A stretch of 61,263 nt of DNA from a virus. How positions within the stretch are numbered: position 1 is the stretch's first letter; each line of letters starts with the position of its first letter. Below the pieces are notes generated by a model. It was given only the letters and a program-made list of their open reading frames with translations. It made no database searches and was not told the origin of the DNA. The position numbers and the translations under genes were made by a program. The stretch spans positions 1-61,263 of the IMG/VR virus record IMGVR_UViG_3300045432_000021; one strand, written 5' to 3'. Below, one piece after another: positions 7,576 to 29,498 of the stretch.

Positions 7576-7818
7576 ATGAAGCAATTTACCTTTGATCTAA
7601 AAGACGGAACTAAGAAAGTAATGGAATTCGATGAGTTTGTACGCTGGATGTGTCTAGTTGAGAGCTTAGAAGTTATCTCTAAAGCGTGTGATGATCGTAA
7701 TATCCCCGCTAATAATGATAGTTGGATTAAACCCTTAGCTATTCAGAGTTATATGGATGAACGTTTTCATTCTATGAAGCATGACTTAACTGTTGAAGCT
7801 ATGATGGGTAATATTTGA
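7576..7818 (+). CDS. Small unknown protein behind an AACGAACA promoter
   Basis: 80 residues, start ATG at 7576. Upstream, inside the end of the previous gene, is an AACGAACA-N4-TATAAT promoter whose -10 ends 9 nt before the ATG. The sequence is mixed helix and strand with no recognised domain (VRWMCLVESLEVISKACDD). It lies directly upstream of the glycosyltransferase and overlaps the TTG that could extend it. Confidence 0.75.
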   Translation: MKQFTFDLKDGTKKVMEFDEFVRWMCLVESLEVISKACDDRNIPANNDSWIKPLAIQSYMDERFHSMKHDLTVEAMMGNI

Positions 7819-7820
7819 TT

Positions 7821-8621
7821 ATGACGTTTGTTACTATCACAGATTCTAATCAGTGGAGGTATATATTACCTAATCTAGTTGTATTAGAGAGCTTTAAGAG
7901 ATCATATACATACTATATCTTTGGTAATAATAAGTATGTTACGTCATTATTGATAGCAGAAATTAAAAGGTTAGATATTGTGCATGGTACAATACACGTC
8001 AGCAATATACCTTCTTTCTTTAGCACTTTCGGATTAAAGCCTACTAATACTAATCATAGTTGGATTACTCCAACCACAATGGATAGATTTGTTATACCGC
8101 TACATACAGATATCGATAAGTTCCTATGGTTAGATTGTGATACTCTTATAATTAGTGAGGAAATTTTTGACTTAGAGCATATAGAGACGTCTGATAAAGG
8201 TATCGCTGCTGCAGTTACTGACACCACTCTAGATGATCACATTATTTATTTTAGTAAGGCTGACTTTCTTGCTGATCTAGCCGTGGAAAACAGCAGCACT
8301 TTTAATGCCGGGGTATGCTTAATGGATTGTAATAAGCTAAGAGATAATAAATATGAGGAATTTATTAGAGAGGTTTATGATAGGTCGCAGGGTAGGTATG
8401 TAAACGATGAAGTTATACTTAACTTGTACGATCAGTCTTTTAACTTACTACCTAGTACTTATAATTGTATGACTCATAAACCTTTCGAGGTGAGAGACCC
8501 GGTTATTGTTCATTTTTCCGGTAAGGATTATAAACCGTGGATAAATCATGTATACAAAAGCGGATATTATTTAAAATACTATAAGTTATGGGAGTACTAC
8601 TACCTTTCACTAGCTGATTAA
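7821..8621 (+). CDS. Glycosyltransferase family 8-like enzyme
   Basis: 266 residues from ATG 7821; an in-frame TTG two codons upstream is the only alternative. A DxD motif in FLWLDCDTLI (Asp105, Asp107) would bind the divalent metal and nucleotide sugar. STFNAGVCLMD near residue 155 is the typical FNAGV acceptor-side motif, and VIVHFSGKDYKPW near 235 is the C-terminal HFxGxxKPW motif of GT8 (glycogenin/LgtC type). It transfers a hexose from a nucleotide sugar. The target is not shown; it could be modified phage DNA, a virion protein or host envelope glycan. It sits beside the adhesin cluster with which it converges. Confidence 0.87.
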   Translation: MTFVTITDSNQWRYILPNLVVLESFKRSYTYYIFGNNKYVTSLLIAEIKRLDIVHGTIHVSNIPSFFSTFGLKPTNTNHSWITPTTMDRFVIPLHTDIDKFLWLDCDTLIISEEIFDLEHIETSDKGIAAAVTDTTLDDHIIYFSKADFLADLAVENSSTFNAGVCLMDCNKLRDNKYEEFIREVYDRSQGRYVNDEVILNLYDQSFNLLPSTYNCMTHKPFEVRDPVIVHFSGKDYKPWINHVYKSGYYLKYYKLWEYYYLSLAD

Positions 8622-9664
8622 GCTTCGCGCCAAGTGTAGTTAACATTAAAGGTAAAGTAATTAGTGCGTTTGCCTGATGGAGCGTAAGGGTCAGAGTACG
8701 GACCTATAGGCCCGGTATTAGTATTAGTAGAATATGTTAATTGCACGCTAGCAGCGGTGTCTGCGTCGAGATTATATATAGCTATTGGAAATCTAAACCT
8801 CGATACAAAGAAATTACTTGACGACTCTAAAGATCCGTCCTTAGAGAGATAGATACACTGTATATTTTTGTAAATACCGACAGAAGTAGCTGATATATTA
8901 ACATATGCTGTAGAGACAGTGACGGATTTAGTTGTGTGATCTATAGAATAACCTAACTCAGTAGGTTTAAAACTAGAACTAACACGATTAATAAGCCCAT
9001 ATGTTAAGACAGTTGGGAAAGTCTCACCAAAACTAGGAATATCTTCAGTGGTTTGCGATAAAATTAGCTCATTATTATTATAGTATGTTCTATCGTAAGG
9101 TATTTGGTAGGTTGCTGCATCTACAGGTATAGAATAGTTATAACCATCTGCAGCATTTACTGTCAGTCTGTAGCTTAAGACTGAACCCCAGTTAATTTTT
9201 AACCTATAATAGAAGATAATGTATTGACCAGCCTTAATATTGAGAGGAGTCAGGAAGGTATTACGAGCAAATGCGTTGCTAGATTGAGATCTTTTTATAG
9301 CAAACTCTTTAATAGTAGTATCTGACGTGGATGGTAGTGTGGTAAACGATCTATAATAGACTTTTGTACTAATATCTTCAACATAAGCCTCACTTGTCGA
9401 TGCTTTTACGCCGCTTAGTCTAGAATCACCAGTCGACTCCTGAATACCATTTAAAAAGTAGCCAGACTTACCGGCAAAGCTGTTACTCTTACCAAAATCT
9501 AAGTAACTAAGCAAGCTAGGTATATCATATGTGTATAAGTCTAGTAGCCCGCCAGATAGAATGGTATTTGTTGACCAATCTGATTCCTCAACAACGAGTC
9601 CATTGTCAATTACTTGATAACTATACTCCCCCTTAAGATCTAAATTTAAATTAACGTTATTCAT
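8618..9664 (-). CDS. Virion structural protein of the adhesin cluster (unknown)
   Basis: 348 residues, rich in Ser, Thr, Tyr and beta-strand patterns, without cysteine-based or enzymatic motifs. The N-terminus (DNGLVVEESDWSTNTILSGG) resembles the attachment region of small tail or fibre proteins I have seen in phages, but I cannot name it. The start overlaps the previous stop by 1 nt (TAATG), so it is co-transcribed with the lectin-like gene. Its stop shares TTAA with the convergent glycosyltransferase. Confidence 0.75.
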   Translation of the reverse strand: MNNVNLNLDLKGEYSYQVIDNGLVVEESDWSTNTILSGGLLDLYTYDIPSLLSYLDFGKSNSFAGKSGYFLNGIQESTGDSRLSGVKASTSEAYVEDISTKVYYRSFTTLPSTSDTTIKEFAIKRSQSSNAFARNTFLTPLNIKAGQYIIFYYRLKINWGSVLSYRLTVNAADGYNYSIPVDAATYQIPYDRTYYNNNELILSQTTEDIPSFGETFPTVLTYGLINRVSSSFKPTELGYSIDHTTKSVTVSTAYVNISATSVGIYKNIQCIYLSKDGSLESSSNFFVSRFRFPIAIYNLDADTAASVQLTYSTNTNTGPIGPYSDPYAPSGKRTNYFTFNVNYTWREA

Positions 9665-10887
9665 TAGGTATAGCTGATAATATAGTTAGAATAATTGCCA
9701 ATTGGTCGCTCATTGCTATTATTAGTATAATTTATTCCAGATCCAATTAACTTCCAGGTACTATCGAAGCTAGAAAGAGATAGTGTTATACTGCTATCTG
9801 CAGATACATATTGGAAGTAGTCTGTACGCGTTAAAGAAATTATCTCGGTAGTCGTAGTATTGTAAAGATTTACATTATAGCCGAAGTTGTAAAGGTCATA
9901 AGCAGAGAAGCCATTATCTATACCTCTATTAAACGCTCGATCTACATTAATACTTATAAGACCAAAATGCTGCCTAGTACTAGAAGCCGGTTCAAAAGTA
10001 ATTGCTGGTGGAGGTGTATAAGGTTCATAGACTGGTGGAACATATGGCTTATACTCACAGTCTGTAACTAGGCATGTATTATCTAATATTGGAGCTTCAA
10101 GTAAAGTTGTTGAGCTAGTAGGAGTAACATATGTAAAATCTTCACGACCTTCAACAGTAAAGTTACTAAATCTTACATCAGGTGCCGGTGCATTACCTGA
10201 AACTGGCTTAACAAATACAACACCAGGTCTAAATCTACTATCAGGAGTTCTACTAAAATTGACATTCTGTGTCAAAATATTAACAAAGTCTTCTGTAGGG
10301 CTATATCTAAAATCAATATATAATGTTTGACCTACATTACCTAACCGAGCTCTAATAGTCTTTTTGCGAGTCTCAAGTATATTAAAGTTGTATGTGGATA
10401 ATGATGTATTAACGGAATACTCTCTCCAACTATATGCTGGCGCTTGCCCTCGGACTGATATAGAGTTTAATTTTCGTCTTGAATCTAATTCACCATCCCT
10501 TACTAAGACACCGAGCGAGCTAACAGATAGAGCAAAGCTACCTGTTGTATCTAGACCAACTCCAATAACGCCTAAATCTATATTACCTAAAGATCCAGCA
10601 TAGCCTAGATCAACATTATTACCAGCAGATAACAGATAGGAGAAAAAATACGTATCATCTGGATAAGCTAAATAGCTTAATGAATCTGTACTAGTTAATA
10701 TAGAGTACCCCTGAGATAAAGCTATGCCCTGCGAGTCTTGTAAAAATAAACAGATACCAAGCTGAGAGTTAACTGGTATGCTTGTAGCGTAATAATCAAA
10801 AGACCATACTATATCGTAATACGGTGAAAGAGCTTTCTCATAAATCTTAAAAAGTTTAGCATTAGGATTAAGAGCAGGATACTCCAT
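9664..10887 (-). CDS. Virion protein with legume-lectin-like (concanavalin-fold) N-terminal domain
   Basis: 407 residues. Residues about 25-220 follow the pattern of L-type lectin domains: FDYYATSIP, a strand QLGICLFLQD, then DLGVIGVGLDTTGSFAL, NSISVRG, and a strand pair ending in GQTLYIDFRYSP. A proline-rich hinge (YVPPVYEPYTPPP) near 280 separates this from a second beta domain (300-407). Carbohydrate binding by the tail is likely; metal-binding residues are not certain. GATAAATA lies 6 nt upstream of the ATG. Confidence 0.7.
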   Translation of the reverse strand: MEYPALNPNAKLFKIYEKALSPYYDIVWSFDYYATSIPVNSQLGICLFLQDSQGIALSQGYSILTSTDSLSYLAYPDDTYFFSYLLSAGNNVDLGYAGSLGNIDLGVIGVGLDTTGSFALSVSSLGVLVRDGELDSRRKLNSISVRGQAPAYSWREYSVNTSLSTYNFNILETRKKTIRARLGNVGQTLYIDFRYSPTEDFVNILTQNVNFSRTPDSRFRPGVVFVKPVSGNAPAPDVRFSNFTVEGREDFTYVTPTSSTTLLEAPILDNTCLVTDCEYKPYVPPVYEPYTPPPAITFEPASSTRQHFGLISINVDRAFNRGIDNGFSAYDLYNFGYNVNLYNTTTTEIISLTRTDYFQYVSADSSITLSLSSFDSTWKLIGSGINYTNNSNERPIGNYSNYIISYT

Positions 10888-10892
10888 ACGTA

Positions 10893-11114
10893 TTATTTAT
10901 CATTGTTCGCAATTATAAAGACGCACGTTAAAGTATTATTGTCTCTAAACCTACAACAACATACTAGTTTATAGTTTAGTCTTTTATATTCTCTATAGAT
11001 GGTCTTAAAATGCTCAACATCGACATTTAAGATGATACTCTTTCTAGTTTTATCTATCAAGATATAATTTGTAAACTCCTGACCTACTGCATAAGCTCGA
11101 TTAGGTATATCCAC
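10893..11114 (-). CDS. Small cysteine-containing unknown protein (GTG start)
   Basis: 73 residues from a GTG. CATAAATA ends 5 nt before this GTG; an ATG one base upstream is out of frame. The middle has a CCCRFRDNN segment. No family is recognised. Position between late adhesin genes suggests a late product. Confidence 0.6.
   Translation of the reverse strand: MDIPNRAYAVGQEFTNYILIDKTRKSIILNVDVEHFKTIYREYKRLNYKLVCCCRFRDNNTLTCVFIIANNDK
10894..10901 (-). promoter_or_regulatory. Late-type box GATAAATA, 6 nt before ATG 10887
   Basis: It drives the lectin-like gene and overlaps the stop of the preceding 73-aa gene. Confidence 0.55.
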
Positions 11115-11119
11115 ATATA

Positions 11120-11127
11120 TATTTATG
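11120..11127 (-). promoter_or_regulatory. Late-type box CATAAATA, 5 nt before GTG 11114
   Basis: Followed by TATAT and the GTG. The box overlaps the stop of the 53-aa gene. Confidence 0.5.
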
Positions 11128-11284
11128 ACTTTTCGTGAAATAATATCTCTTTTACCTTCGACCTCAATTGGTTAGCCGACTTATAATCTTCAATTTCATT
11201 TATTGAAAATCTAACATTGCAGAGTAATTTTTCAATAAACAAAAAATCTTCGAATGTAAACCCTTCAACAATTATTTCTTCCAT
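11123..11284 (-). CDS. Very small unknown protein (53 aa)
   Basis: An intact ATG-initiated frame of 53 residues fills the 171-nt space between two minus-strand genes. It starts 1 nt after the stop of the tail-collar protein gene and is acidic at the N-terminus (MEEIIVEGFTFEDFLF). Its tight coupling supports a real gene; the function is unknown. Its end overlaps the upstream region and promoter box of the next gene. Confidence 0.55.
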   Translation of the reverse strand: MEEIIVEGFTFEDFLFIEKLLCNVRFSINEIEDYKSANQLRSKVKEILFHEKS

Positions 11285-11285
11285 A

Positions 11286-13028
11286 TTATAATGTATATCC
11301 TACAACGCGAAGTACAACTGCATCACTATTACAAACGGGAGATCTAAACGCCATAACCAATTGACCGGTATTATTAGCAGATAGCGGTAGAAATACCTGA
11401 CTTACATCACACTCTGGAGGATTACCTATACTGTTAGACCCTCTAAGGTAGCTCACTGTATATTCTGTTGACGATGCGAAACGTTGAGTATCTGGACCAA
11501 GTAAGTCTATATTTGGAGCTGATACTATTACCCTTGGAGTATTAGGTTGTGCAGTACCAGTCTCGTTAAATTTGGTAACTCTACTTTCTATAATTAAGTT
11601 CTTAGCGTTACTTGGTATAGTTGTTGAAGGGCTTGCGATACCTGCTGGTAGAGTTGATGCATTTGGAACAGTGGCAGGTAGTTGAGTTATAAAGGGATAT
11701 GCTGTTATAGCACCAAAAAAGCTCTCTGGAACATTAATACCAGGTACGTTCAAAGGATCTTCTTCACTTGAATGTTTATAAAAAGTAACTGGAGTTTTGA
11801 GGAATGTTATAGGTGAACTTGCATTATATGCAGTGTTAGAACCAGCAGGGGTTTCTGCACCAGCTAATATAGTGGGAGTAGCAATCGGATTTAAAACTCG
11901 ACCATAATTATCAATTAAAAATGCCCCGCTTATAGTCTGCGATGAGGTAACTTGAGGTAAGCTGATAACATGATTACCAGATAGCGCTGTTACTGTTAAA
12001 CCAGTTGATGTAACTCCATTAAGAGTAGAGCTGAGACCAGCTGTAAAGGAAATGGTAGAGCTAACTATGGGGTCAGCTATTGCCTTTATAATATAGAGCA
12101 TTCCGGTTGCGCTCAATGTACTAACATTGGTTGTTCTAGCGCATAACGAATAAACCGTAGATGTTGCAGGGCCACTCGCTGTACCGTAGAGAGTTTTATT
12201 TATAAGATCAGGTACTTTAAAGTTAGTAACGTCACCTCCATAAGTAGTACCGATAGCGGTATACAACTGAGGATAAGTAGCTGATGGTACAGCCTGGCCA
12301 TTACATAATAGCCACCCAGATGGAGCATTGGCAGCAGAAGCAAAAGGCATTATGGAGCCTACAGGAATCTGACCAGCTGTTCCTGGCACGAAAAGCGTTG
12401 ATGACTGAGTATAATTTGTCCATTTTAGTTTACCTGTAATATCTGTTGATAAAAACAATTCATTGGCAGTTGCGATAGGCCACTCATAACTTACATTATT
12501 AATTTTAAGCTTTCCTGGTAGAGTAAAATACTCTGTATCAGACGGTTGAATACTATTTGTGATAATTGTCTGAGAATTTAAACCTATTTTACCACCACTT
12601 AAGATTAATGAATTGCCAACTATACCTGGATCAATATTACTAGCAGAAACTAACCCTACAGTAAAGGTATTACCAGTTCTTATAATAGTACTATCGCCCG
12701 CTTCATATACCCCGCCAATTACTTCCCAATTTGCTATATTATTAGAGGCGCCACCTATAAATCTATATAGAATTTTGTTATCACTATCATACGCCTGATC
12801 GCCAGGAGAAACGTTTGTTGAATCAGTTACATTATTACTTGAACCTCTAAATGTATTACCAATTAAGATACCGCCTAGAGTAGTGCCATCACCGACGTAT
12901 AGTTTCTTAGTATCTGTAGTATATCCTAGCTCTCCTGCAGCAAGTACCGCGCCCAGTCTATCAGCATTGATACCTCTACGTACTAGAAGTCTTAATAGAG
13001 AATTTTCAAATATTTCAATTTTTGCCAT
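11286..13028 (-). CDS. Tail fibre protein with Mtd-N-like domain and phage tail collar domain
   Basis: 580 residues. Residues 10-55 (RRGINADRLGAVLAAGELGY then KKLYVGDGTTLGG) match the N-terminal domain of the Bordetella phage major tropism determinant, a virion-attachment trimerisation module. Residues about 222-275 (PVGSIMPFA, PSGWLLCNGQAVP, YPQLYTAIGTTYGG, FKVPDL) are a clear phage tail collar domain. The C-terminal 300 residues are Ser/Thr-rich beta structure, likely the receptor-facing part. No late box matches the standard spacing; it may be transcribed from the box upstream of the next gene. Confidence 0.88.
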   Translation of the reverse strand: MAKIEIFENSLLRLLVRRGINADRLGAVLAAGELGYTTDTKKLYVGDGTTLGGILIGNTFRGSSNNVTDSTNVSPGDQAYDSDNKILYRFIGGASNNIANWEVIGGVYEAGDSTIIRTGNTFTVGLVSASNIDPGIVGNSLILSGGKIGLNSQTIITNSIQPSDTEYFTLPGKLKINNVSYEWPIATANELFLSTDITGKLKWTNYTQSSTLFVPGTAGQIPVGSIMPFASAANAPSGWLLCNGQAVPSATYPQLYTAIGTTYGGDVTNFKVPDLINKTLYGTASGPATSTVYSLCARTTNVSTLSATGMLYIIKAIADPIVSSTISFTAGLSSTLNGVTSTGLTVTALSGNHVISLPQVTSSQTISGAFLIDNYGRVLNPIATPTILAGAETPAGSNTAYNASSPITFLKTPVTFYKHSSEEDPLNVPGINVPESFFGAITAYPFITQLPATVPNASTLPAGIASPSTTIPSNAKNLIIESRVTKFNETGTAQPNTPRVIVSAPNIDLLGPDTQRFASSTEYTVSYLRGSNSIGNPPECDVSQVFLPLSANNTGQLVMAFRSPVCNSDAVVLRVVGYTL

Positions 13029-13040
13029 GATATGTTTTTA

Positions 13041-14159
13041 TTATGATATAGGTCCGCCGGATAATGCAGTTACTTGCGAAAATCTAAAGACAGGTATAGC
13101 TAAGTCACCTGAAGAAGATGAATTGATTACAATAAATCCTGCTGAACTAACGCTTGCTGTATAACTAGTACCTATAGTAGTTATGTCTGAATATGTAGCT
13201 TCAAATACTTGCTGATTAGTGAATGCATTCTGATCTATAGTACCGTTATAAGCGGAACCTGTACCAGCGGTATCTGTTGATATTATATAACCGAACATCG
13301 ATGAACGACTAGTTATTATACCATCTTCATTATAGTTAATATTATCAAACCTAGTATTAACATTGCCAGCGTGTTTTGGCTTTAGAGATATTATACCAGC
13401 ATTTGACTCTAGACTATCGTTATCTACATTTTTTAATCTAGCTGTCAATACTCCATCTACAGCTTGCAAGCCATCACCCACAAAGTTACTGCTTAGAGAG
13501 CTTGTTGTAACAGTTCCAGGAGGAACTTGAGTGATTGTGAGTTGTGAATTTACATTATACCCGAAGTATCTTGGATCAACATTTACATCGATAAGATTGC
13601 CACTACCGCCTGAAATAGACCTACCGAAAGAAGTACTGCTTATTGAATCTTTAGTAATACCCTTAACAGCTAACTTATTGTTAACAATATTCATTGTAAC
13701 ATTATCTACGTTAGCTGATATACCTATACCGAACGATAGTCCGCCATTTGCTGTTACAACATTAGGGCTAAGCTTAGTATATCCTAGTGAATAGTCTTGA
13801 ATACCTAATATGTTTGAGCCACTTGCATACTTGAGAATCAACCCATCAACTTTTGGGCTTATATTAAGCCAGTGAGTAAGATTACTGTAATCCGTACCAG
13901 TTAACTGATACATTAACGACCCTGTAAATACTATATCATTCTGAACAGCTCTAGAAACTGTATTTCTAGATAAACTATTGCTAACAGGGTTATGTATAAC
14001 ACTACCAACAGGTCTACCACCATAAGTAGTGCCGTCTCCTACAAATACTCTTGCTGTATCGGTTGTATATCCTAATTCACCCTGCTCAAGTATAACAGCC
14101 TTACGCTGAGAGTCGGTACCTCTTCTAATCTTTAATTTTATTATAGTTTGTGCAGGCAT
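13041..14159 (-). CDS. Tail fibre protein with Mtd-N-like domain
   Basis: 372 residues. Residues about 8-52 (KIRRGTDSQRKAVILEQGEL then ARVFVGDGTTYGG) repeat the attachment module of the downstream gene, so the two are paralogous at the N-terminus. The rest is Asn/Ser-rich beta structure with no enzymatic motif. It probably forms a trimeric fibre on the same baseplate site type. A perfect TATAAATA lies 9 nt before the ATG. Confidence 0.82.
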   Translation of the reverse strand: MPAQTIIKLKIRRGTDSQRKAVILEQGELGYTTDTARVFVGDGTTYGGRPVGSVIHNPVSNSLSRNTVSRAVQNDIVFTGSLMYQLTGTDYSNLTHWLNISPKVDGLILKYASGSNILGIQDYSLGYTKLSPNVVTANGGLSFGIGISANVDNVTMNIVNNKLAVKGITKDSISSTSFGRSISGGSGNLIDVNVDPRYFGYNVNSQLTITQVPPGTVTTSSLSSNFVGDGLQAVDGVLTARLKNVDNDSLESNAGIISLKPKHAGNVNTRFDNINYNEDGIITSRSSMFGYIISTDTAGTGSAYNGTIDQNAFTNQQVFEATYSDITTIGTSYTASVSSAGFIVINSSSSGDLAIPVFRFSQVTALSGGPIS

Positions 14160-14168
14160 TTTAATAAT

Positions 14169-14176
14169 TATTTATA
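14169..14176 (-). promoter_or_regulatory. Late box TATAAATA, 9 nt before ATG 14159
   Basis: Perfect T4 consensus, with a slightly longer spacer than most. Confidence 0.7.
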
Positions 14177-14185
14177 ACTGATTCA

Positions 14186-15004
14186 TTAATATACCCAGCC
14201 ATCTAAAGTAACATTTAACTCATACAGATTTAAAGTATTGTTTGTAGATCCTGCTAAGGTCTGTACTTCAAAGTAATAAGAAGATGTACCAGTAGCAGGT
14301 ATTGCGAAAAACTGTTGGGTCGAGTCATAGATTGTATCTACGCCTAAGGATCGATAGTCTTCTCTTACTTCGCCAGTACATACTGTCTTCCCGTCCATCT
14401 TTAAATAAACCGCAAAATCGCCACCGTTAGACTGTAGGAAAAGTTTCGTATTAATAATAGCGTACCTAGCTGTCGCACCACTAACATAACCAGAGAAAGT
14501 ACTCCAATTAATATTAGTATTTGGTATTATAGTTTGTACCGTGTTTGGCACGCCAAGATAACTATTTATCGATAAACGTGCTGGTGTAATTAAGCTAACA
14601 GGAGCGCTTAAGAGAGATAAAGTAGGTCTTGATGTAATATTAGTAATAACACCATCGACAACAGTTATTCTAGGGTTATCATACACGCCATCTTCAATTG
14701 TAGAGCCACCAATAATCTCAGAAAGAGATTTCAATTCAAGAACACCAGCGGCTGTTCTAGCTACAACTTGATTTTCTGCTCCATCTTTATTAGGCATTAA
14801 TAATTCACCTGCCTTCACATTATTAGCAGATAACAACCCGGTAATCGATGCGCCCTGAGCTGCTCTTCCGACAGAAAGAGAAGATTGCACACCGACACCA
14901 TCATACACCGCTTCTTGACCGGTCGGAGGGATTGTTGTTCCGTTAGTATGTAGCACACCCTTATAGGTAGCGCTAATATTAGTGTTGGTCAAAGCGTTTG
15001 GCAT
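14186..15004 (-). CDS. Tail fibre or baseplate-attached structural protein (unknown)
   Basis: 272 residues, Thr/Ser/Asn-rich. The N-terminal half looks like a fibre shaft; the C-terminal half (residues 165-272, with RYAIINTKLFLQSNGGDFAV and SSYYFEVQTLAGS) resembles a compact beta-sandwich. No named family is recognised. CTTAAATA lies 5 nt before the ATG. It belongs to the same late adhesin cluster. Confidence 0.75.
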   Translation of the reverse strand: MPNALTNTNISATYKGVLHTNGTTIPPTGQEAVYDGVGVQSSLSVGRAAQGASITGLLSANNVKAGELLMPNKDGAENQVVARTAAGVLELKSLSEIIGGSTIEDGVYDNPRITVVDGVITNITSRPTLSLLSAPVSLITPARLSINSYLGVPNTVQTIIPNTNINWSTFSGYVSGATARYAIINTKLFLQSNGGDFAVYLKMDGKTVCTGEVREDYRSLGVDTIYDSTQQFFAIPATGTSSYYFEVQTLAGSTNNTLNLYELNVTLDGWVY

Positions 15005-15009
15005 ACTAT

Positions 15010-15017
15010 TATTTAAG
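15010..15017 (-). promoter_or_regulatory. Late-type box CTTAAATA, 5 nt before ATG 15004
   Basis: Lies in the 16-nt gap between two adhesin-cluster genes. Confidence 0.5.
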
Positions 15018-15020
15018 TTA

Positions 15021-17393: not shown

Positions 17394-20300
17394 TTAAAGT
17401 CGATAAAGTTAATATTGTTTATATACACTCCAGCTGGTAGTAAAGATTTTGATTGAGATAAAATCTCATTAATTATGTTTTGTCTAAACTCACTATCTTC
17501 AACCTTTAAATTTTTAATATAAATATCTACCAGCTTACTACTACTCGTTTGTGAGAATTTAAATAACCTCTCAACCTCTTCTGTATTATTACGTTGACCA
17601 GCAGGTATAGATAAAACAATATCATCTATAGCTTTTCCAAACATATTTACCGCATATATTTCGGTATCATTAAGAACCTTATCATAAAACAGAAAGTTAC
17701 GAATTCTTGCATCTTTAATAAAGAACTGACCAGGCTGCTTCAAATAAGTCGCTATATCAATGCCGTTAAAAAACCCTAATGTACCTAAAAATAATTCTTC
17801 ATGAAATATTGTTTGATACTTATACTTGCCAACTGGCACTTGAAGATTAGTATGCTTGATGCCATCGACAAACAAGGTTATATTACCTTTTATAGAATCA
17901 AATCTATAAGTAAAATTATGAAATCCTTCATCTATAGTATTCGTATCGAAATCAATAACTTTGCTAACAACCTCTTCCGATGAAAGGTAATTAGTTAAGG
18001 TAAGTTCAAACTTTATACTGTCAGGTTTATAATTTAAATCTAAATACTGATAGTTAGTCTGGGTATAACGCTTAATTTCTGGCGCGAATGCAGTGTAAGT
18101 CCCACTTAGCGGTAACAATGTAAAGGTATTAGTATAGTTACTATCGTAAACATTAAACTTAGCGAGACCTAGTTTATTATTTTCAGTTAAAATTAGAGCA
18201 GTGACTGCAAAAGTAGGTTCACCATATCTATACTCCTTAATAAAATCTATATCTAATACTTTTGTTTCTTCAGACGATAGACTACTTGAAATACTTGATA
18301 AAGAAACACTAGCTACAGCCTGTCTATTCTGACTGTATACCAAAACTTTATTTTTATAACCAATGTAAACATTATTTTTATTATCTATATTAAAGTCAGT
18401 TATAGTGATGTCAGTATTAGATAGACTATCAGACACCTTAACAAAGTCTATAGGAGCTTCTGTACGCTGTAGATCGTGCTTAGTAACTACTTTATCACCA
18501 ATATTATAATATAGAATATCAGAATCTCTACCCGTATATCTTACCTTTCTACCTAGTATATTATATAGCTTATTGTCATATCTAAAGATACTAAGAGCTT
18601 CGTAAGGGTCAGATTTTTCATATGTGCCCCAACGCTGACTGGTAACAGTAGTTACTTCAAGTGTTAATTTATCCAATTGATAGCAGGTACCTTCTATTAC
18701 ATCTAATTCATTATCATTAGCAAGGAAAGTAATAGTGTTTTCTTCTTGTAGGTAACTCTTATAAGCAGTTAGTTGTGACACTACCTCTAATTTTATTTTA
18801 TTACCGAGAGGATCCACTTTATAAATGTAACCATTCTTACATATTACAAAAAAGTTTTCCAAGGCTTTATCAGGAATAACATCTCTAATATCTCTATCAA
18901 ACTTTGTTGAAGAAATATATACATGATCTGTATTATAGACATAGAGTATATTATTCTGATAGGTATATATAAATGGTGTAATAACAGTGTCACTTCTTAC
19001 CCCGAACCCGGTGTTAGTTTTATTACCTGCTATCTGAAAACCATAATCTGTACTCTGATCTATATACAAATCAAAACTTACAGTAAATTGACCGGATTTG
19101 TTTACCTCTGGCGAAACTATATACTTGTTATATTTGGTGCCATCGTAGGAAATAGTATTAGACTCGTAAGCAACAGATACATTAGATGTGTTATAGTAGT
19201 TATTAAATCCTGATAGGAGAGGAGCGCTACCTACAACAATATTATTAATATCATCTACTCCAATTCTTTCGTATCTATAACTGGTACTAGGTTCCAATGC
19301 TAAAGAACTAGCAAAATCTATTATTGGTGTTACATTATTGCTGTCATCATAATACCTATCTAACCAAACACCAGGAGCATCAGTTGTACTAGCTGAAAGC
19401 CAAGTACATAAATACCTACCATTATTAAATTGATTAGTATATCTACGATTTATGTATATCTTATCTGAAAGAAGAGGTGAAGGGCCGCCGCAGCTACCAT
19501 TAGAGACAAAATCTGTATCGTTTATATTAATTTTTTCGAAAGGGTACATGTTATCCGGAGTCTTAAAAAAGGTATCAGACCCACTCTTAATAACTAAATC
19601 CTTGTTAAAAAATACATAATTTAGAGTAATATTTTTATTACCTTTTTCTTGATTATTACCTGTGAGCAACGATGTATATTCTCTAAAATCGATATCTGGT
19701 ATACTTCTATCGGCAGATAGTAAGTTAGTACCAGTGCTGACATATCCCTTTTCCGTTCTATAATTATTAAGGGTTATAAAATTTAAATTAAAGTAGTCCG
19801 GGCTCTCTAGATTGTAGTTTGTGTGTAGTAGATACTGCGATGGTAGGTCATACTTACTTTTACTATCGTTAGGAGTTAAATTATTAAGCTGAGTAGGTAC
19901 ATATGAGACCCAGCTAGTGGAATTTTTGGTATCTACTTGAGTAAAGTTATAGTTGATAGCTATTATACTCGCATTTTTACTCGCAGAGAGGTCATCTACT
20001 GTAGTTAGTCTTAAATCTTCATTATCATATATAAGAGTTTTTACAGTTTCACCCGATATAACTTTGTATAAAGTTAAATAACCTCTTTTGTCTAGCTGAT
20101 ACCTAAACACATCGTTTCTTTCAGAGTTAACTATACTACGTGGATCGATACTTGATGCATAACTAAAGAAAGTTAAGTTATTTGTTGTCTGTATATAATT
20201 TAGATAGAAATCTCTAGACCCAATAATCGAAGAAGGTGTAGTATTATGCTTAACTCTAAGTAGTTTATTGGTTAGTATCTCAAGTTCAAAACTAACTCTA

Positions 20301-20695
20301 TTGTCAAATGCAGATGAGCTTAAAGCTTTTACAGAAACACTAGCACTATACTCGTTAGTAGCGGATAGTAAAGTGATGTCAGATGTATCTATACTCAAAC
20401 ATCTACTATCAGCTGTTGAAACGATAGAGTTAAATATAAGAGGTGTTGTAATAGTGTATAATGGACTCTTTTGCTTGAACGATCTGAGAAACTCGCTATA
20501 TTCTTTCTTTTCTGTAAGGTAATGTGAAGTATAATTATTTATAGATGAATTATAAACATTGGAAAATGCAGATATTTCAAGTAAAGACAGTCCGTCATCG
20601 TAGTTTACACGTCTCTGTTTAAACGCATAAAAGGGGTCACTATAAACAGCTGGTAGAGCATATATAGCAGAGACACTTTTAGTCTGTAAATTCAT
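17390..20695 (-). CDS. Giant virion protein with LamG/concanavalin-like domains
   Basis: 1101 residues. Near residue 510-590 is a jelly-roll segment (GQFTVSFDLYIDQSTDYGFQ). Around 910-1035 a LamG-like domain is visible: FHNFTYRFDSIKGNITLFVD, then LFLGTLGFFNG and a closing IRNFLFYDKVLNDTEI. The middle carries NHL-like strands (IYKVDPLGNK). The C-terminus resembles baseplate-attached proteins (hydrophobic INNINFIDF). LamG domains in tail proteins usually bind glycans. CATAAATA lies 9 nt before the ATG. Confidence 0.75.
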   Translation of the reverse strand: MNLQTKSVSAIYALPAVYSDPFYAFKQRRVNYDDGLSLLEISAFSNVYNSSINNYTSHYLTEKKEYSEFLRSFKQKSPLYTITTPLIFNSIVSTADSRCLSIDTSDITLLSATNEYSASVSVKALSSSAFDNRVSFELEILTNKLLRVKHNTTPSSIIGSRDFYLNYIQTTNNLTFFSYASSIDPRSIVNSERNDVFRYQLDKRGYLTLYKVISGETVKTLIYDNEDLRLTTVDDLSASKNASIIAINYNFTQVDTKNSTSWVSYVPTQLNNLTPNDSKSKYDLPSQYLLHTNYNLESPDYFNLNFITLNNYRTEKGYVSTGTNLLSADRSIPDIDFREYTSLLTGNNQEKGNKNITLNYVFFNKDLVIKSGSDTFFKTPDNMYPFEKININDTDFVSNGSCGGPSPLLSDKIYINRRYTNQFNNGRYLCTWLSASTTDAPGVWLDRYYDDSNNVTPIIDFASSLALEPSTSYRYERIGVDDINNIVVGSAPLLSGFNNYYNTSNVSVAYESNTISYDGTKYNKYIVSPEVNKSGQFTVSFDLYIDQSTDYGFQIAGNKTNTGFGVRSDTVITPFIYTYQNNILYVYNTDHVYISSTKFDRDIRDVIPDKALENFFVICKNGYIYKVDPLGNKIKLEVVSQLTAYKSYLQEENTITFLANDNELDVIEGTCYQLDKLTLEVTTVTSQRWGTYEKSDPYEALSIFRYDNKLYNILGRKVRYTGRDSDILYYNIGDKVVTKHDLQRTEAPIDFVKVSDSLSNTDITITDFNIDNKNNVYIGYKNKVLVYSQNRQAVASVSLSSISSSLSSEETKVLDIDFIKEYRYGEPTFAVTALILTENNKLGLAKFNVYDSNYTNTFTLLPLSGTYTAFAPEIKRYTQTNYQYLDLNYKPDSIKFELTLTNYLSSEEVVSKVIDFDTNTIDEGFHNFTYRFDSIKGNITLFVDGIKHTNLQVPVGKYKYQTIFHEELFLGTLGFFNGIDIATYLKQPGQFFIKDARIRNFLFYDKVLNDTEIYAVNMFGKAIDDIVLSIPAGQRNNTEEVERLFKFSQTSSSKLVDIYIKNLKVEDSEFRQNIINEILSQSKSLLPAGVYINNINFIDFK

Positions 20696-20704
20696 TACTA
20701 TGAT

Positions 20705-20712
20705 TATTTATG
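20705..20712 (-). promoter_or_regulatory. Late-type box CATAAATA, 9 nt before ATG 20695
   Basis: Precedes the 1101-residue LamG-like protein gene. Confidence 0.6.
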
Positions 20713-20753
20713 CACAATGAGTCAATTCAGAAAATGACTTGTCATAACATTAT

Positions 20754-21386
20754 CTATATATCGTAGTAAGTCTGATCATAATCCTTATAAAGATCGATAA
20801 TATTACAACCTTCAAGTGTATTATCGTCAACTATAATTGGAGATGAGCCGTATCTGTTATATGTGTCAAGAGCAGCTACGTATGTATAGTTACCTAACTT
20901 ACCTTCTAAATTTATAAAGGCATTATTAGAGGAGAGAGGCATAATCTGAGCGCTTAATATATCTATATCTCCTACTTCATCATAATAAGAAGATTGAAAT
21001 ATGTTTATAGGCTGCTCTATTCTCAATGTAGAATTGTCCTTATATATAATAAGCATTTGCATCAAGATACTAGAATTAAAATAACTAGTATTGTTGTAAT
21101 ACAGGTGAGATTTTGTAGTTAAGATACTACCAAGAGGCTTATTATATACTATCTCATCAATAATATTAGAGGTTCTATAATCTACTAGCACTGGCCTAGT
21201 GTAATTTTCGACAGGTGACCCATCTCCCCAATCTATATCTAAATATAATGCTTCAGAGTCACTTTCTACTATATTACTTAAAATATAGTTTATATTAGTC
21301 TTTGACTTTATATCTATACCTGATAGAGTGACTGTGTCCCCTGAGGTAAAGCTAGGTACATTTACTGATATAGTTAAATCTCTCAT
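20754..21386 (-). CDS. Virion protein with PKD-like domain
   Basis: 210 residues. DIDWGDGSPVENY followed about 50 residues later by SHLYY matches the WGDGS...H.Y signature of PKD beta-sandwiches. PKD modules serve as spacers or weak binders in surface proteins. It overlaps the upstream 1000-residue gene by 4 nt (ATGA), so the two products may assemble together. No catalytic motif is present. Confidence 0.72.
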   Translation of the reverse strand: MRDLTISVNVPSFTSGDTVTLSGIDIKSKTNINYILSNIVESDSEALYLDIDWGDGSPVENYTRPVLVDYRTSNIIDEIVYNKPLGSILTTKSHLYYNNTSYFNSSILMQMLIIYKDNSTLRIEQPINIFQSSYYDEVGDIDILSAQIMPLSSNNAFINLEGKLGNYTYVAALDTYNRYGSSPIIVDDNTLEGCNIIDLYKDYDQTYYDI

Positions 21387-24385
21387 ATAAATACCTCTGT
21401 TCCTGATATGGTTCCTGTTGTACTATTGCCGCCTATAGAAGCAAATGTAGTATTAACAAAGTCTGTAGTACGTATTGTATTAGAATGCTTGTACCATTTA
21501 CTATCTAAGAACGAAATTAACTGATCACTTGTTATTTCAAATGTATGTTCTACTAAGTGGAAGTGATTATTATTATCCATTAGTATAAATACCAATTTAT
21601 AAACATCGTTTAATGAATTATAAGTCAATATTGGCCTCTTAACTCTTACTGGGTTAAAATTACACTCAGTATCAAACTCATTTGCAAGGGTAAAGTTACC
21701 TGAAAGCGCTACAATTTCGGAACTAGATGGGAATAATTGCTTAGCTGTATTATCTGTTATGTTAAACTGATAGATGTAAGGTAAAAACATCTTATTATTA
21801 CTATTAATAAGATCGGTATTAGTAATATCTGTTACTAATTGACCGAGACTGTTCACAATAGCAGGTACAATTTTGCAGAAGCTTATAGTTTTCTCTTTCT
21901 CATTAAAGAATCTTTGTGAAAAGACATTTAGAGAGGAGGCTGAAGATATACTATACACAGTATTAGCCGTACTTGGCTCGATATAGATACCATTCTCATA
22001 CACTATCTTATCAAAAACAAGGTAGCTTGGAGTTTCAATACATATTGTATTGTAAAATATTTCTAGATCTTTTGGTTTATTGTATATTTCTGATTTAACC
22101 GATGAGCTATACTTACTAAAGATGCTACTTAATGAGTCGCTTATTGACTTGGTGTTAGTAGAGCCACCTGTTTTTGAATATATCCTACCTTGTAATTGAT
22201 CTTTATATGTTTGCGCTCTATATACATTATCTCCAGTTAAAGATGACATTACTGTCAGCCCGGTAGCATAAACTATATCACTGTATGGTATACGCTCATT
22301 ATATGTATCGTCTTGAGCTAATACGAAATTGGTACTGAAGTTACCACCATCATAGTCTGTTACTAAATTACTAGACAGAACAGAGCTAGTATTTAAGGTA
22401 AAATTAGCACTTAACGATACACTATTTGCGTAATCGCGTGCTATAGTAGGAGGCGTTAAACTAGATACACCTCCATCCATTAATTCATCATAATAATACT
22501 CAAACGCACCAGGATAATTTGTAAAACCTGCATAGATAGGATCAGACAATAGTTCACCACTATCATAAGTAAAACTATTACCGTCTTTTAATTGGTAGTA
22601 GACTACTTGATTTAGAGCGGACACACTATTAAAGCTGAGGTCTAATATATCAAACGTATTAACAACGTTATCAGGCGTTTCCTCAAACCAATCATAAGGG
22701 TAAAGATCTCTAAAGTTGAGAGTGTAATAAGGTATTGTTAAAGGGTAAGTAGGTGTAGTACTTACAACAACTGTTCTTGTTGTGAATTCGTATAAAAAAT
22801 TATACCCTAGGGTTGGATCTTTAAAGGTATAGCCGTCCAGCTGTAAGTATTTTAAAGAATTTTCTGATGCATCAACTGTTTGAACTTCAAAAGATTTAAA
22901 AGTTTGTCCAAACTTATCCTTAAAAAGAGCATATTCGTTGCCATATATGTCGTATTGAATCTTAGTTATATAGCCTTGATTGTATAGATCGCTAAAGTTT
23001 AAATTTATCTCAAAATTATTAAACGAATTTATCGTGCTTTGCTCTGTTACGTAGTAGGGTGAAAAGGTTTGGTCGCTTGATTGTACCTTAGGTATACCTA
23101 CTGCAAATCCACTTGAAACATTTCTAACATCTGGTCTATAATCGTGAATATATACTAAGGGACTGTCCTGACTCTTATTTATAGTTACATTTCCATACCG
23201 TTTTGGGTCCGGAAAAACATATATTTTATTTGACTCTAATTTACTCTCATCGACTCTATAGCCAAAGTTATTAGAATTTAATTGAAAAATACCTTGAGTA
23301 TCAGGACTAAAGAATAAACCTACATTTCTAAGAAGTCTAGCTTCGTCTGATCTAACTGTAGGAGTCGAAGCGACCTGCAGATTGTGTATATTGTTAGAAG
23401 GGTTGCTTGCTGTAACAAGTACACCAGAGACAGGAGTACCACTTGTAGTATCAATATAGTATATATCTGTACCTATATACTTTTCTAAAAGCTTTTTCTT
23501 GAGAACTAAAACATCACTATTAGTTAGCCCTGTAACTTTTGAATTATTGAGTAAAGTTAAAGGGTTGGTCGGGTCGCAAACCGGGTCATACTTAAGACTA
23601 ACGTTAGCTATTAAAGGTATCTCGACGAGAAAAGCTACACTACCAAAGATTTCCTCATATTGACTACCTGTAAAAAATAATTTAGCTTCGACTGGATTAT
23701 AGTTTGAAGTATAATAGTCTTTAAATGTTCCGTTAGCAGCGTTAAAATCTGACTGCTCTACATCTAACGGTAGATCAAAGTAACTACCGTAGACGTCTAT
23801 ATATTCTTCTATGTCGACTTTTAAATATTTTGAAATACCTGAAAGAGTAAACCCAAGAGTAGAATATTGCGGATCATCTTGAGCAGAGAAGACGTAGTTG
23901 TAGATATTGTCATATAACCCCTTTTCGAGCGAGACTTCAGTACCCTTAATTTTGTTTCTATCTACAGAATACTTTGCATCATCACGTTTGTTCTTATAGA
24001 AGAGTATGACTTGACGTATCTTCTCAACAAAAAACGGTATTGCTACATCAAGGTCTGCTGGATCATTAAAGTTAATATTACTAAGAAACTTTCTTTCTTT
24101 AGCAGTAGAAAAAGTTACTATAATTTCCTTTATAAAAGCAACATAATAATCAACATAGCTGAGAGACTGACCGTCCCTTGTAGCATTTTTTGAGGCAGAC
24201 CAGTCTTGTAGATAAGTTATGTAAAAATTATTATATTCTTCAGGAGAGTAGTCTACTTTTGTTAAAGTTATAAACTCTAAAAAAGAGAACGGGGCGTTGT
24301 TGTCCTCTGCTACTGAAAAATCTACATCTGGATTAGTAATTGAGGTAGGTACTAAATTTGTAGCATATGTAATTGCAGCTGCCAT
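21383..24385 (-). CDS. Giant virion structural protein (unknown)
   Basis: 1000 residues. The N-terminal 250 residues are helical with charged segments (REFLSNI-type helices and KNKRDDAKYSVDRNKIKGTE) as in baseplate-anchoring domains; the rest is Tyr/Asn/Ser-rich beta structure. No domain family is recognised. ATTAAATA lies 6 nt before the ATG and overlaps the stop of the preceding gene. Its position next to gp6 and PKD proteins suggests a baseplate-periphery component. Confidence 0.75.
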   Translation of the reverse strand: MAAAITYATNLVPTSITNPDVDFSVAEDNNAPFSFLEFITLTKVDYSPEEYNNFYITYLQDWSASKNATRDGQSLSYVDYYVAFIKEIIVTFSTAKERKFLSNINFNDPADLDVAIPFFVEKIRQVILFYKNKRDDAKYSVDRNKIKGTEVSLEKGLYDNIYNYVFSAQDDPQYSTLGFTLSGISKYLKVDIEEYIDVYGSYFDLPLDVEQSDFNAANGTFKDYYTSNYNPVEAKLFFTGSQYEEIFGSVAFLVEIPLIANVSLKYDPVCDPTNPLTLLNNSKVTGLTNSDVLVLKKKLLEKYIGTDIYYIDTTSGTPVSGVLVTASNPSNNIHNLQVASTPTVRSDEARLLRNVGLFFSPDTQGIFQLNSNNFGYRVDESKLESNKIYVFPDPKRYGNVTINKSQDSPLVYIHDYRPDVRNVSSGFAVGIPKVQSSDQTFSPYYVTEQSTINSFNNFEINLNFSDLYNQGYITKIQYDIYGNEYALFKDKFGQTFKSFEVQTVDASENSLKYLQLDGYTFKDPTLGYNFLYEFTTRTVVVSTTPTYPLTIPYYTLNFRDLYPYDWFEETPDNVVNTFDILDLSFNSVSALNQVVYYQLKDGNSFTYDSGELLSDPIYAGFTNYPGAFEYYYDELMDGGVSSLTPPTIARDYANSVSLSANFTLNTSSVLSSNLVTDYDGGNFSTNFVLAQDDTYNERIPYSDIVYATGLTVMSSLTGDNVYRAQTYKDQLQGRIYSKTGGSTNTKSISDSLSSIFSKYSSSVKSEIYNKPKDLEIFYNTICIETPSYLVFDKIVYENGIYIEPSTANTVYSISSASSLNVFSQRFFNEKEKTISFCKIVPAIVNSLGQLVTDITNTDLINSNNKMFLPYIYQFNITDNTAKQLFPSSSEIVALSGNFTLANEFDTECNFNPVRVKRPILTYNSLNDVYKLVFILMDNNNHFHLVEHTFEITSDQLISFLDSKWYKHSNTIRTTDFVNTTFASIGGNSTTGTISGTEVFI

Positions 24386-24391
24386 TTAATA

Positions 24392-24399
24392 TATTTAAT
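24392..24399 (-). promoter_or_regulatory. Late-type box ATTAAATA, 6 nt before ATG 24385
   Basis: Overlaps the stop codon of the PKD protein gene. Confidence 0.5.
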
Positions 24400-26554
24400 C
24401 AAACAAATCGAGACCTTTATATAGCTGATTGCTTATTAAGTTTGCAATAATGCCGTCTTGTTTTGACCACTCAGAGTAAGAAGATACATTAGGGGTTATA
24501 GTAGTATTTGTATCTTCAAAGTTAATAATACTATCCTTTATGGTTCCCTCTACAGTAGATATATGTCTATAAAATGTATAATAATCCTTTATTTTAGTAC
24601 CATAACCTGTATCTGGTAGAACTAATCCCCATCCCCAGTTATCATTATACGCACTTATGATGTAGGTTTTTGAATTAACTGCACTTACGGGTTGGTAGGT
24701 GCTTATGACTTTAAAATTATTACCAAATCTTTCATGAGCTACTAAACTCTGACCTGCTGTAATAGTTTGAAAAATAGATACTGGCTGACCTAAGTTAACA
24801 CCATATACTTCATTATTGCTATAACCTTTAGTATCAAAATCTTCATTATATGCATTAACGCTACCAAACAGTCTCGATTTATTAATAGAGAGGATATCAA
24901 TTAATCTAGATAATTCCGCAGGGTAACGATAATTATTAGCACTAAACTTTAAAGTATCAATATTCAATTCTTCTAATAACGAATACAAGTTATTGATATT
25001 GGAATAATCGAGAACCTTATTGTTGGATATAAAATTAGATATCTTTTCGTAAGTTAATTTACCTATAGTTGTTTGCTCTGAGTCTATAGTACCAAAAATA
25101 TTACCTAAGAACTCATCATACAATACCTTGGTATCTAAAAATAGACTCTGAAGAGAAATATCTTTGAATTTCTGAGTAAGATCTATATCTTCATTTATCT
25201 TAGCTATAGTATACTGACCTCTCACAGGGTAAATATCAAAATTTGTTGATCTACCACTTATAGAAATGCTAACCGATGTTAAGGAATCGACTAGGCTAAT
25301 ACTACTTGACGAGGGTGAATAAGTATCATAACCTATTGATTCACCTGATAGAGTTAAAACACCGCCAATATATGTAAGATAGTTAGGAGTATAAGCTGTT
25401 TGATATATACAGCTTATATACACATCTTTTAAAGGGTCCGGCTGACCAGTAGATGGATTAACAGGTAAAGCACTTGCAGGTAACGTCAGAGTGCCTCTAT
25501 ATACACCGTAAAGTTGATTAGCTGATAATAGAGTTGTATTTGAGGCAAAAACAGCAGAGCTATAAACAGTATTATTCTTTCTCAAAGAAAGAATAAAGCT
25601 ACTCGAAACTGGTTTCTTGAGAGTAAAATTTTCAGTATCCTTAACTTTAACAACAAACCCAATTTTAGTATTAGCGAATTTATTTTTATTTATTGGGTAA
25701 CTTGCTTGTGATGTTCCCTCTGACTCAAGTCCACATGAGGTAATAGATAGGTAACTGTAGTCTGTGTTGTCTAAGATTGTTATACCAGTTAATGTAGTAT
25801 TGAATGTATTGCTAGCGTATAGTAAGCTTCCTGGTTCATAGCCAAAAAATAGATCAACTCTAGGCTTACTGATATCACTCTTAAAGTAAACCGTAGCAGA
25901 GCCAGATGATCCGCAAAAATATGATCCACTATCAGTTGAATTACATCTAATTATATTGGCACCAGATAATTTAAAATATAGATCGTCGTTGCTTGTAGAA
26001 AAGGAGGAAATCTCAACAAACTCTGAAGTATTTTTTGTTATTGGTTGAATTTGATAGAACGAAGAGAACGGATATAAATGACCGTAATAGGCATTAGCGA
26101 GTCCAGTATCAAAGTAATTGTCGTAAGCACCAGAGGCAAACGGTACTATAGTTAATGACGAGCTGTTCTGTGTTTGATAAGATGTAAACCGCGTAATATT
26201 TATTGGTGTCTTAATTTTATTGGCTATTAATAAAATAGGATACACTTCTGTACTAGCTGCTAAAACATTATTAATAAAATTAATAGTAGTAACTGTCTCT
26301 GTATCGGTAGTTACATTACCGAGTCTATCATAAAAATGACAAGTCACCGTATAGACACCAGGTAATCTATAGTAGTGTTGACCTGTTAAAGCTTCTGATG
26401 AAGTACCGTCACCGAAATCCCAGAGTACACGAGTATTAGACCTAACTCCATCCTTATTGAATTCAGGTTTGAAGTAAAAGCTGGTGAAGGGTAAAGTATA
26501 ACTTGACAGGGCGAGTGCGCCAGTGTAATTGAACGTTTTGAATAAGCTCGCCAT
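24395..26554 (-). CDS. Virion protein with N-terminal PKD domain
   Basis: 719 residues. Residues about 25-90 hold a textbook PKD signature: VLWDFGDGTSSEAL, then GQHYYRLPGVYTVTCHFYD. Several further beta-sandwich segments follow, and the C-terminal 200 residues include a helical region and an aromatic segment DNWGWGLVLPDTGYG. No enzymatic motif is seen. It is encoded next to gp6 and expressed from CATAAATA 5 nt before its ATG. Likely part of the baseplate or fibre network. Confidence 0.8.
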   Translation of the reverse strand: MASLFKTFNYTGALALSSYTLPFTSFYFKPEFNKDGVRSNTRVLWDFGDGTSSEALTGQHYYRLPGVYTVTCHFYDRLGNVTTDTETVTTINFINNVLAASTEVYPILLIANKIKTPINITRFTSYQTQNSSSLTIVPFASGAYDNYFDTGLANAYYGHLYPFSSFYQIQPITKNTSEFVEISSFSTSNDDLYFKLSGANIIRCNSTDSGSYFCGSSGSATVYFKSDISKPRVDLFFGYEPGSLLYASNTFNTTLTGITILDNTDYSYLSITSCGLESEGTSQASYPINKNKFANTKIGFVVKVKDTENFTLKKPVSSSFILSLRKNNTVYSSAVFASNTTLLSANQLYGVYRGTLTLPASALPVNPSTGQPDPLKDVYISCIYQTAYTPNYLTYIGGVLTLSGESIGYDTYSPSSSSISLVDSLTSVSISISGRSTNFDIYPVRGQYTIAKINEDIDLTQKFKDISLQSLFLDTKVLYDEFLGNIFGTIDSEQTTIGKLTYEKISNFISNNKVLDYSNINNLYSLLEELNIDTLKFSANNYRYPAELSRLIDILSINKSRLFGSVNAYNEDFDTKGYSNNEVYGVNLGQPVSIFQTITAGQSLVAHERFGNNFKVISTYQPVSAVNSKTYIISAYNDNWGWGLVLPDTGYGTKIKDYYTFYRHISTVEGTIKDSIINFEDTNTTITPNVSSYSEWSKQDGIIANLISNQLYKGLDLFD

Positions 26555-26559
26555 CTAAT

Positions 26560-26567
26560 TATTTATG
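26560..26567 (-). promoter_or_regulatory. Late-type box CATAAATA, 5 nt before ATG 26554
   Basis: Overlaps the stop codon of gp6. Confidence 0.6.
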
Positions 26568-28374: not shown

Positions 28375-28375
28375 T

Positions 28376-28861
28376 TTATACAAAGTTGTAGCCGTCTATA
28401 TTTAAGACCCCTTTCAGTGAAAGTTGATAAACTTCTAATTCTGGTATAGAGAATTCAAGATTTATTACATATTCCATATCATCTATGTTTGCAAGTACCT
28501 CTATAAAATCAATAGAGATTCTAGGCTCTTGAATAGCAATACCGTCAAGTATAGTTTGAGCTAAAAAGAAAGCTTTATTCTCCGAAACTGTCTCAAAAAG
28601 ATATACTCTAAGATCTAATCCAAATAGAGGATTTAATAACTTCTGACCTGGCGTTGTAGAAAGAATATTTTTAAAAGCATTTACTACCGCATCTCTATCT
28701 GTTATATACGCTAGATCTTTTGTTTCTCTCTTAGAGTACATTTCATTACCTTTAAGATACGTAGATGTCAAATCAAGCTTTATATCTTTGTATAAGTAGC
28801 CTCTAGATATAGCAGCTTGTATATCAGTAGGTCTTTGAACGATATTTAATTTTATAGCCAT
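28376..28861 (-). CDS. gp25: Baseplate wedge protein gp25
   Basis: 161 residues (T4 gp25 has 132). The family signature is clear: YLYKDIKLDL, DRDAVVNAFKNILSTTPGQK and LNPLFGLDLRVYLFE, the gp25/GpW lysozyme-like fold that nucleates sheath polymerisation. It lies directly upstream of gp6, the same pair as in many contractile tails. A short in-frame mini-ORF with its own late box precedes it by 3 nt. Confidence 0.95.
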   Translation of the reverse strand: MAIKLNIVQRPTDIQAAISRGYLYKDIKLDLTSTYLKGNEMYSKRETKDLAYITDRDAVVNAFKNILSTTPGQKLLNPLFGLDLRVYLFETVSENKAFFLAQTILDGIAIQEPRISIDFIEVLANIDDMEYVINLEFSIPELEVYQLSLKGVLNIDGYNFV

Positions 28862-29225: not shown

Positions 29226-29498
29226 TTACCAATTAGCGCAGGAAAGAGCTTTAGCAGTTCCTGGCTTAGCTGAGGAACACTTATGACGAGCCCTAAAAGC
29301 TTTACGCTTTTTAGGGTTTGATTTTTTTATTCGACGTTTAGGATCACCGTAGTGAACTCTCTTAAGCTTGCCGTCAACCCTTACACATCTCATATATTTC
29401 TTCGAAGGTCTTGTAGATGATTGCTGTTTTGTAACTTTCGTACAACGAGCACCTGCCTTTTCTTCCAATATCTCTGCTACAAGTTTGTCGAATTCCAT
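29226..29498 (-). CDS. Small basic phage protein with conserved KPGTAKALSCANW-type tail
   Basis: 90 residues. The segment VHYGDPKRRIKKSNPKKRKA, then FRARHKC, then a C-terminal SCANW belongs to a motif seen in many phage proteins (YGDP..IKK..PKRRKSFRARH.C....YWSC.AW), whose role is unknown. Four cysteines and the very basic middle suggest metal and nucleic-acid binding. ATTAAATA lies 5 nt before the ATG, so expression is probably late. Confidence 0.8.
   Translation of the reverse strand: MEFDKLVAEILEEKAGARCTKVTKQQSSTRPSKKYMRCVRVDGKLKRVHYGDPKRRIKKSNPKKRKAFRARHKCSSAKPGTAKALSCANW

Follow-up and report, generated by a model that had tools for sequence, protein, structure and literature searches.

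The uncultured virus recorded in IMG/VR as IMGVR_UViG_3300045432_000021 is represented by 61,263 nucleotides (nt) of DNA, here called the window. Positions 8618-26554 of this window contain a cluster of ten minus-strand open reading frames (ORFs) of 210-1101 amino acids (aa), named g1 (leftmost) to g10 (beside the baseplate gene gp6). Together with two small genes, they constitute a 12-gene conserved set immediately downstream of gp25-gp6. The original prediction for this DNA had counted nine large genes and overlooked the two small ones (11123-11284 and 10893-11114), but it correctly described the cluster as minus-strand, co-directional and adjacent to gp6, which applies to all large ORFs of 8618-26554. 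Judged by its sequences, the set is composed of two parts, a core (g10, g9, g7 and g6) and a rim (g8 and g5-g1). Features below lie on the minus strand unless stated otherwise.

Gene order in the window and in related contigs

Two baseplate wedge proteins are encoded upstream of the cluster. The gp25-like protein (161 aa; 28376..28861) was assigned via PHROG 261 (E 1.7e-19), and its gene adjoins gp6 in 25 relatives. The gp6-like protein (26563..28383) is 606 aa long when read as an ORF with a TTG start. It probably begins at the ATG at position 28374, because its homologues begin at residue 4 of the TTG ORF. The protein matches PHROG 219 (E 6.6e-40) and the T4-type gp6 profile (E 3e-28; hhalign 99.8%). 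g10 starts 8 nt past gp6, and the genes from g10 to g1 are closely packed. As had been noticed from the sequence, some of them are linked by ATGA overlaps, namely g9/g8 (21383-21386) and g7/g6 (17390-17393), while g2 and g1 overlap by 1 nt. The gap of about 390 nt between g3 and g2 harbors the two small genes, which encode proteins of 53 aa (11123..11284) and 73 aa (10893..11114, GTG start). Nine relatives have both genes in the corresponding position.

Scans of IMG/VR provided 41 related uncultured-virus contigs. The order gp25-gp6-g10-g9-g8-g7-g6-g5-g4-g3-g2-g1 is maintained as far as each contig reaches, with four exceptions: three rearranged contigs and one local rearrangement near g3/g2. 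gp6 and g10 are adjacent in 30/30 contigs, g7 and g6 in 34/34, and the g3-g2 gap measures 390-426 nt in 18 of 19. This recurrence argues against a chance arrangement. Additional genes enter at two sites. The distance between g8 and g7 exceeds 100 nt in 12 of the 32 contigs and reaches 6.9 kb, and the distance between g5 and g4 does so in 6/25, where it reaches 5.1 kb. Large fibre-like proteins and radical-SAM genes are among the ORFs that relatives carry as inserts. Genes inserted at g8|g7 or after g5 in three relatives (L012, L040, L062) comprise radical SAM genes as well as glycosyltransferase-like and amidinotransferase-like genes, the latter two recognized by eye.

Core proteins, rim proteins and their modules

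Alignments of homologues revealed that g10, g9, g7 and g6 are single-copy, conserved over most of their length and fixed in order. g10 (719 aa; 24395..26554) combines an N-terminal PKD domain (PKD_4, 8.3e-10) with a conserved C-terminal part. The domain is kept in 18/18 homologues scanned and thus appears to be a fixed structural element. For g9 (1000 aa; 21383..24385), the homologue alignment and an AlphaFold2 model indicate a helical N-terminus and a β-rich C-terminus that is partly propeller-like. The overall predicted local distance difference test (pLDDT) value of this model is 53, with about 85 for the C-terminus (residues 730-970), and Foldseek returned weak propeller matches for the C-terminal part of this low-confidence model. 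g7 (1101 aa; 17390..20695) is predicted by AlphaFold2 (pLDDT 70.6) and Foldseek to comprise β-sandwiches, a β-propeller, a LamG-like region at about residues 810-1005 and a small α/β C-terminus. Many β-propellers were matched by this model, and none of the T4 baseplate chains was among its 50 best Foldseek matches. Among viral models, it matched a full-length homologue of an uncultured phage (1.4e-66) and phage proteins annotated as ConA/LamG (E about 1e-8 to 1e-6, low template modeling score). Profile searches of the PDB with g9 and g7 gave no meaningful match. g6 (790 aa; 15021..17393), the core partner of g7, consists of an NHL-type propeller, which matches NHL propellers in the PDB with 6e-11 to 3e-10, and a conserved C-terminal part of about 150 aa. 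The window g6 carries an insert at about residues 41-164 that is missing from most relatives.

One further relative was obtained by a GTDB scan, the 376-kb contig JAGBVI010000001.1 of a yak-cecum bin assigned to Paludibacteraceae. When TAG is read as glutamine, this contig encodes a full-length g7 (1263 aa, 11 TAG) beside g6 (690 aa, 10 TAG), and gp25, gp6, g10-like and g9-like genes are present elsewhere on it. Reading TGA as tryptophan was rejected because it did not open g7. Its gp6 is 37% identical to that of the window (E 3.7e-107), and the homologues of g7, g6 and g9 were matched with E values of 5e-114, 6e-87 and 2e-39, respectively. Profiles of g2 and g5 found nothing on this contig. 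In our reading of the sequences, it also holds a tail-sheath-like ORF and GroEL, which suggests that it is a phage contig. The structural genes of this apparent jumbo-phage contig read TAG as glutamine, and many of its other genes have no in-frame TAG. As a TAG-recoded contig with homologues of gp25, gp6, g10, g9, g7 and g6, it may be comparable to the Lak-type large alternatively coded gut phages (PMC8346664). The window genes themselves are read in the standard code. Among isolate phages, tblastn with g4, g6, g7, g9, g10 and the jumbo g7 gave no relatives. The conservation of the core proteins, their fixed order and their occurrence in a distant jumbo phage are consistent with structural wedge or rim proteins.

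The rim proteins g8 and g5-g1 have conserved N-termini and variable C-termini. g8 (210 aa; 20754..21386) retains a conserved N-terminal part of about 170 aa with a PKD-like WGDGS motif. Its total length in relatives ranges from 170 to 987 aa, with C-terminal extensions of 0 to about 800 aa. g1 (348 aa; 8618..9664) likewise has a conserved N-terminus and a C-terminus of variable length, giving 132-950 aa in relatives, one of which is cut by the contig end. The C-terminal ends of both proteins in relatives are repeats or unrelated modules. A profile similarity between g1 and g8 was dismissed because it was due to low-complexity TPT repeats.

The clearest exchange concerns g5 (272 aa; 14186..15004), a candidate receptor-binding fibre with a conserved N-terminal part of about 55 aa. 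Identity among homologues is 51% over the first 40 residues versus 6-16% past residue 80. Tip types were assigned from the C-terminal sequence, with two types confirmed by Pfam (Gp10_C, 3.8e-18; Peptidase_S74, 3.1e-16): most homologues have a Gp10_C-like tip, three an S74-chaperone tip, and the rest, including the window, other tips. When mapped onto a tree of g7 from 20 contigs, these types require seven changes, three of them separate changes for S74 alone.

g4 (372 aa; 13041..14159) is fibre-like and carries an Mtd_N domain (Pfam, 5.5e-11). g3 (580 aa; 11286..13028) combines Mtd_N (1.1e-10) with a Phage Tail Collar domain (1.8e-20), as in short tail fibres, and the N-termini of g3 and g4 are paralogous (hhalign 99.8%). 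The Mtd_N domain is shared with Mtd of Bordetella phage BPP-1. Unlike in BPP-1, neither a reverse transcriptase (RVT_1) nor a pair of template and variable repeats is present within the 61-kb window, and diversification of g3 and g4 by a diversity-generating retroelement was therefore rejected. In the N-terminal 250 aa of g2 (407 aa; 9664..10887), which is followed by a variable C-terminus, an L-type-lectin-like residue pattern is seen by eye in the family alignment. Profile searches with g2 gave no match in Pfam or the PDB. Of the modules originally proposed, Mtd_N in g3 and g4, Collar in g3, PKD in g10 and the NHL propeller in g6 are thus supported by profiles. The lectin assignment of g2 is weak. 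For LamG in g7, support is weak to moderate: Pfam Laminin_G_3 was detected in 1/20 homologues (E 0.0024), and the structural matches have low template modeling scores. Structure prediction, which had been suggested as a check for each protein, was applied to g7 and g9 and yielded the propeller and ConA/LamG-like matches of the former and the weak propeller matches of the latter.

The wealth of such modules had led to the proposal of a corona that addresses several receptors, and the variable C-termini of g8, g5 and g1 would also fit a corona in which each of the nine or ten large proteins is an adhesin in its own right. A baseplate-associated, multi-module apparatus for host contact is indeed consistent with the gp25-gp6 synteny, the fibre-type modules and the swapping of g5 tips. 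That every large protein is an adhesin is unlikely, because the single-copy core is conserved lengthwise, is fixed in order in nearly all contigs reaching it and is present in a very distant jumbo phage, whereas exchange, as observed for g5, is the usual pattern among receptor-binding proteins. PKD, LamG and NHL modules are also common among secreted bacterial proteins, which would fit products that the infected cell secretes or displays on its surface instead of virion parts. This explanation appears very improbable, considering that the genes are located within the gp25-gp6 block in every spanning contig and that tips of the Gp10_C and S74 chaperone kinds belong to the fibre-type modules.

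Relation to T4 and to other host-recognition systems

Nothing similar was thought to lie beside gp6 in T4. However, gp7-gp12 immediately follow gp6 in T4 and likewise in the T4-like phages of Aeromonas and Vibrio, and cyanophages and pelagiphages possess giant structural proteins, gp8 and VrlC. Profiles of gp7, gp8, VrlC, gp9, gp10, gp11 and gp12 gave no match to the window ORFs at E<=1, and hhalign comparisons of the core proteins with T4 and cyanophage proteins had the same outcome. The controls were positive, as the gp7 and gp8 profiles detect each other across these T4-like and marine phages. Consequently, T4 gp7-gp12, the cyanophage giant proteins and VrlC were rejected as homologues of the core, and the position beside gp6 appears to hold a different set of proteins. 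In the reverse direction, the g5 family profile matches the C-termini of T4-type gp10 and gp12, and g3 is similar to gp12 in its collar part (hhalign 67.5%). These results indicate that fibre tips are shared but the core is not.

The core proteins could also be very diverged orthologues of T4 gp7, gp8 and gp10 and not replacements. They occupy the same genomic position and order relative to gp25-gp6, and g10 follows gp6 at 8 nt, similar to gp7 after gp6 in T4. Nonetheless, hhalign and hidden Markov model searches were silent in both directions, even though gp6 (99.8%) and the cross-lineage gp7 and gp8 comparisons were positive, and the 50 best matches of the g7 fold search included propellers and no T4 baseplate chain. 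We consider this orthology improbable.

Host-recognition clusters of marine T4-like phages already represent this kind of region. The cluster of pelagimyophages contains ConA, Mtd and YadA proteins as well as glycosyltransferases, and T4 gp7 is absent (PMC7029224). Like the window set, the clusters of pelagimyophages and cyanomyophages are hypervariable, lie beside baseplate genes and encode fibre, ConA and Mtd proteins (PMC7029224). Unlike the window set, these phages keep gp8 and VrlC, with the cluster between VrlC and the neck gene, and neither protein was detected in the 61-kb window. By sequence comparison, the g10-g9-g7-g6 core differs from the structural operon of these phages. The gp7-gp12 cassette of the Straboviridae also lies after gp6 in the same direction and ends in a short fibre with a collar domain, while the core proteins of the window have no profile relation to gp7-gp11. 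The T4 cassette builds the baseplate periphery and pins (for fibre and pin roles, see PMC3004832), and the same role is proposed here for the window set. In the branched tailspike complex of the Ackermannviridae (CBA120; PMC11414711), several receptor-binding proteins similarly combine conserved N-terminal docking regions with exchangeable C-terminal tips. Different from CBA120, the window has no recognized tailspike depolymerase fold, and its exchangeable element is the small fibre g5.

Proposed role, host signals and neighboring genes

Taken together, the cluster probably specifies the outer baseplate of a T4-like phage with a contractile tail, comprising rim and pins, as well as the fibres for host recognition. 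From gene order, conservation, modules and tip exchange we infer the following arrangement in the virion. g10, g9, g7 and g6 would form a structural rim and pins attached to the gp25-gp6 wedge, in which PKD, propeller and ConA-like folds may serve as rigid platforms for protein-protein contacts. g5, g4 and g3 are predicted to be trimeric fibres that dock via their conserved N-termini and expose their variable tips, and g8, g2 and g1 may sit at the periphery with their variable ends pointing outwards. By analogy to T4, receptor contact would cause the fibres to pull on the rim, and sheath contraction would be triggered via gp6.

Several points weigh against this assignment. The virion location is predicted from the genes of an uncultured virus, and the models of g9 and g7 are partial (pLDDT 53 and 71). 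By fold, g9 and g10 might conceivably be diverged orthologues of T4 gp7 or gp8, and the identification of a lectin in g2 and of LamG in g7 is weak. Moreover, the window is a 61-kb fragment, and gp8, gp9 or VrlC could therefore be encoded elsewhere in the genome.

Chances appear evenly balanced that the set represents a second, non-homologous solution for the peripheral baseplate, in which gp7-gp11 are replaced by a PKD/propeller/ConA core. This core would be common to viruses of aquatic origin and to TAG-recoded jumbo phages of the gut, which probably infect Bacteroidota, and genes for host range would enter at fixed sites. If so, T4-type contractile tails would retain the gp25-gp6 wedge while swapping the whole outer baseplate, and a new protein set would be available for asking how receptor contact reaches the sheath. 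The swappable tips of g5, g8 and g1 would then decide the host range in this uncultured lineage.

Shine-Dalgarno motifs were found at 4/49 gene starts of the window and 11/235 of the relatives, which corresponds to the background level. Bacteroidota are devoid of Shine-Dalgarno sequences (PMC6847099), and a Bacteroidota host is therefore plausible, in agreement with the bin of the jumbo contig. A ATAAATAAT-like motif, most often located 5-7 nt before ATG, precedes 20/49 starts in the window (P 1e-20) and 103/235 in the relatives (P 3e-91). It was chosen after viewing upstream sequences, so that the P value for the window is not independent, and the relatives constitute a separate but related set. 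The motif might also reflect promoters very close to the starts.

At the left end of the cluster, a GT8-family glycosyltransferase (7815..8621, plus strand; Pfam Glyco_transf_8, 5.8e-16) is convergent with g1 and overlaps its end by 4 nt. The gene abuts g1 at the same place and in the same orientation in the loci of six relatives, and the enzyme could modify virion or host glycans. On the opposite side of the wedge genes, a 90-aa protein (29226-29498) with no Pfam match is 92% identical in one relative (L002), in which the neighboring gp6 is 63% identical. Finally, a 1037-aa protein encoded on the plus strand (57494-60607) shows a marginal Phage_tail_C match (2.6e-5) and is possibly another tail fibre.

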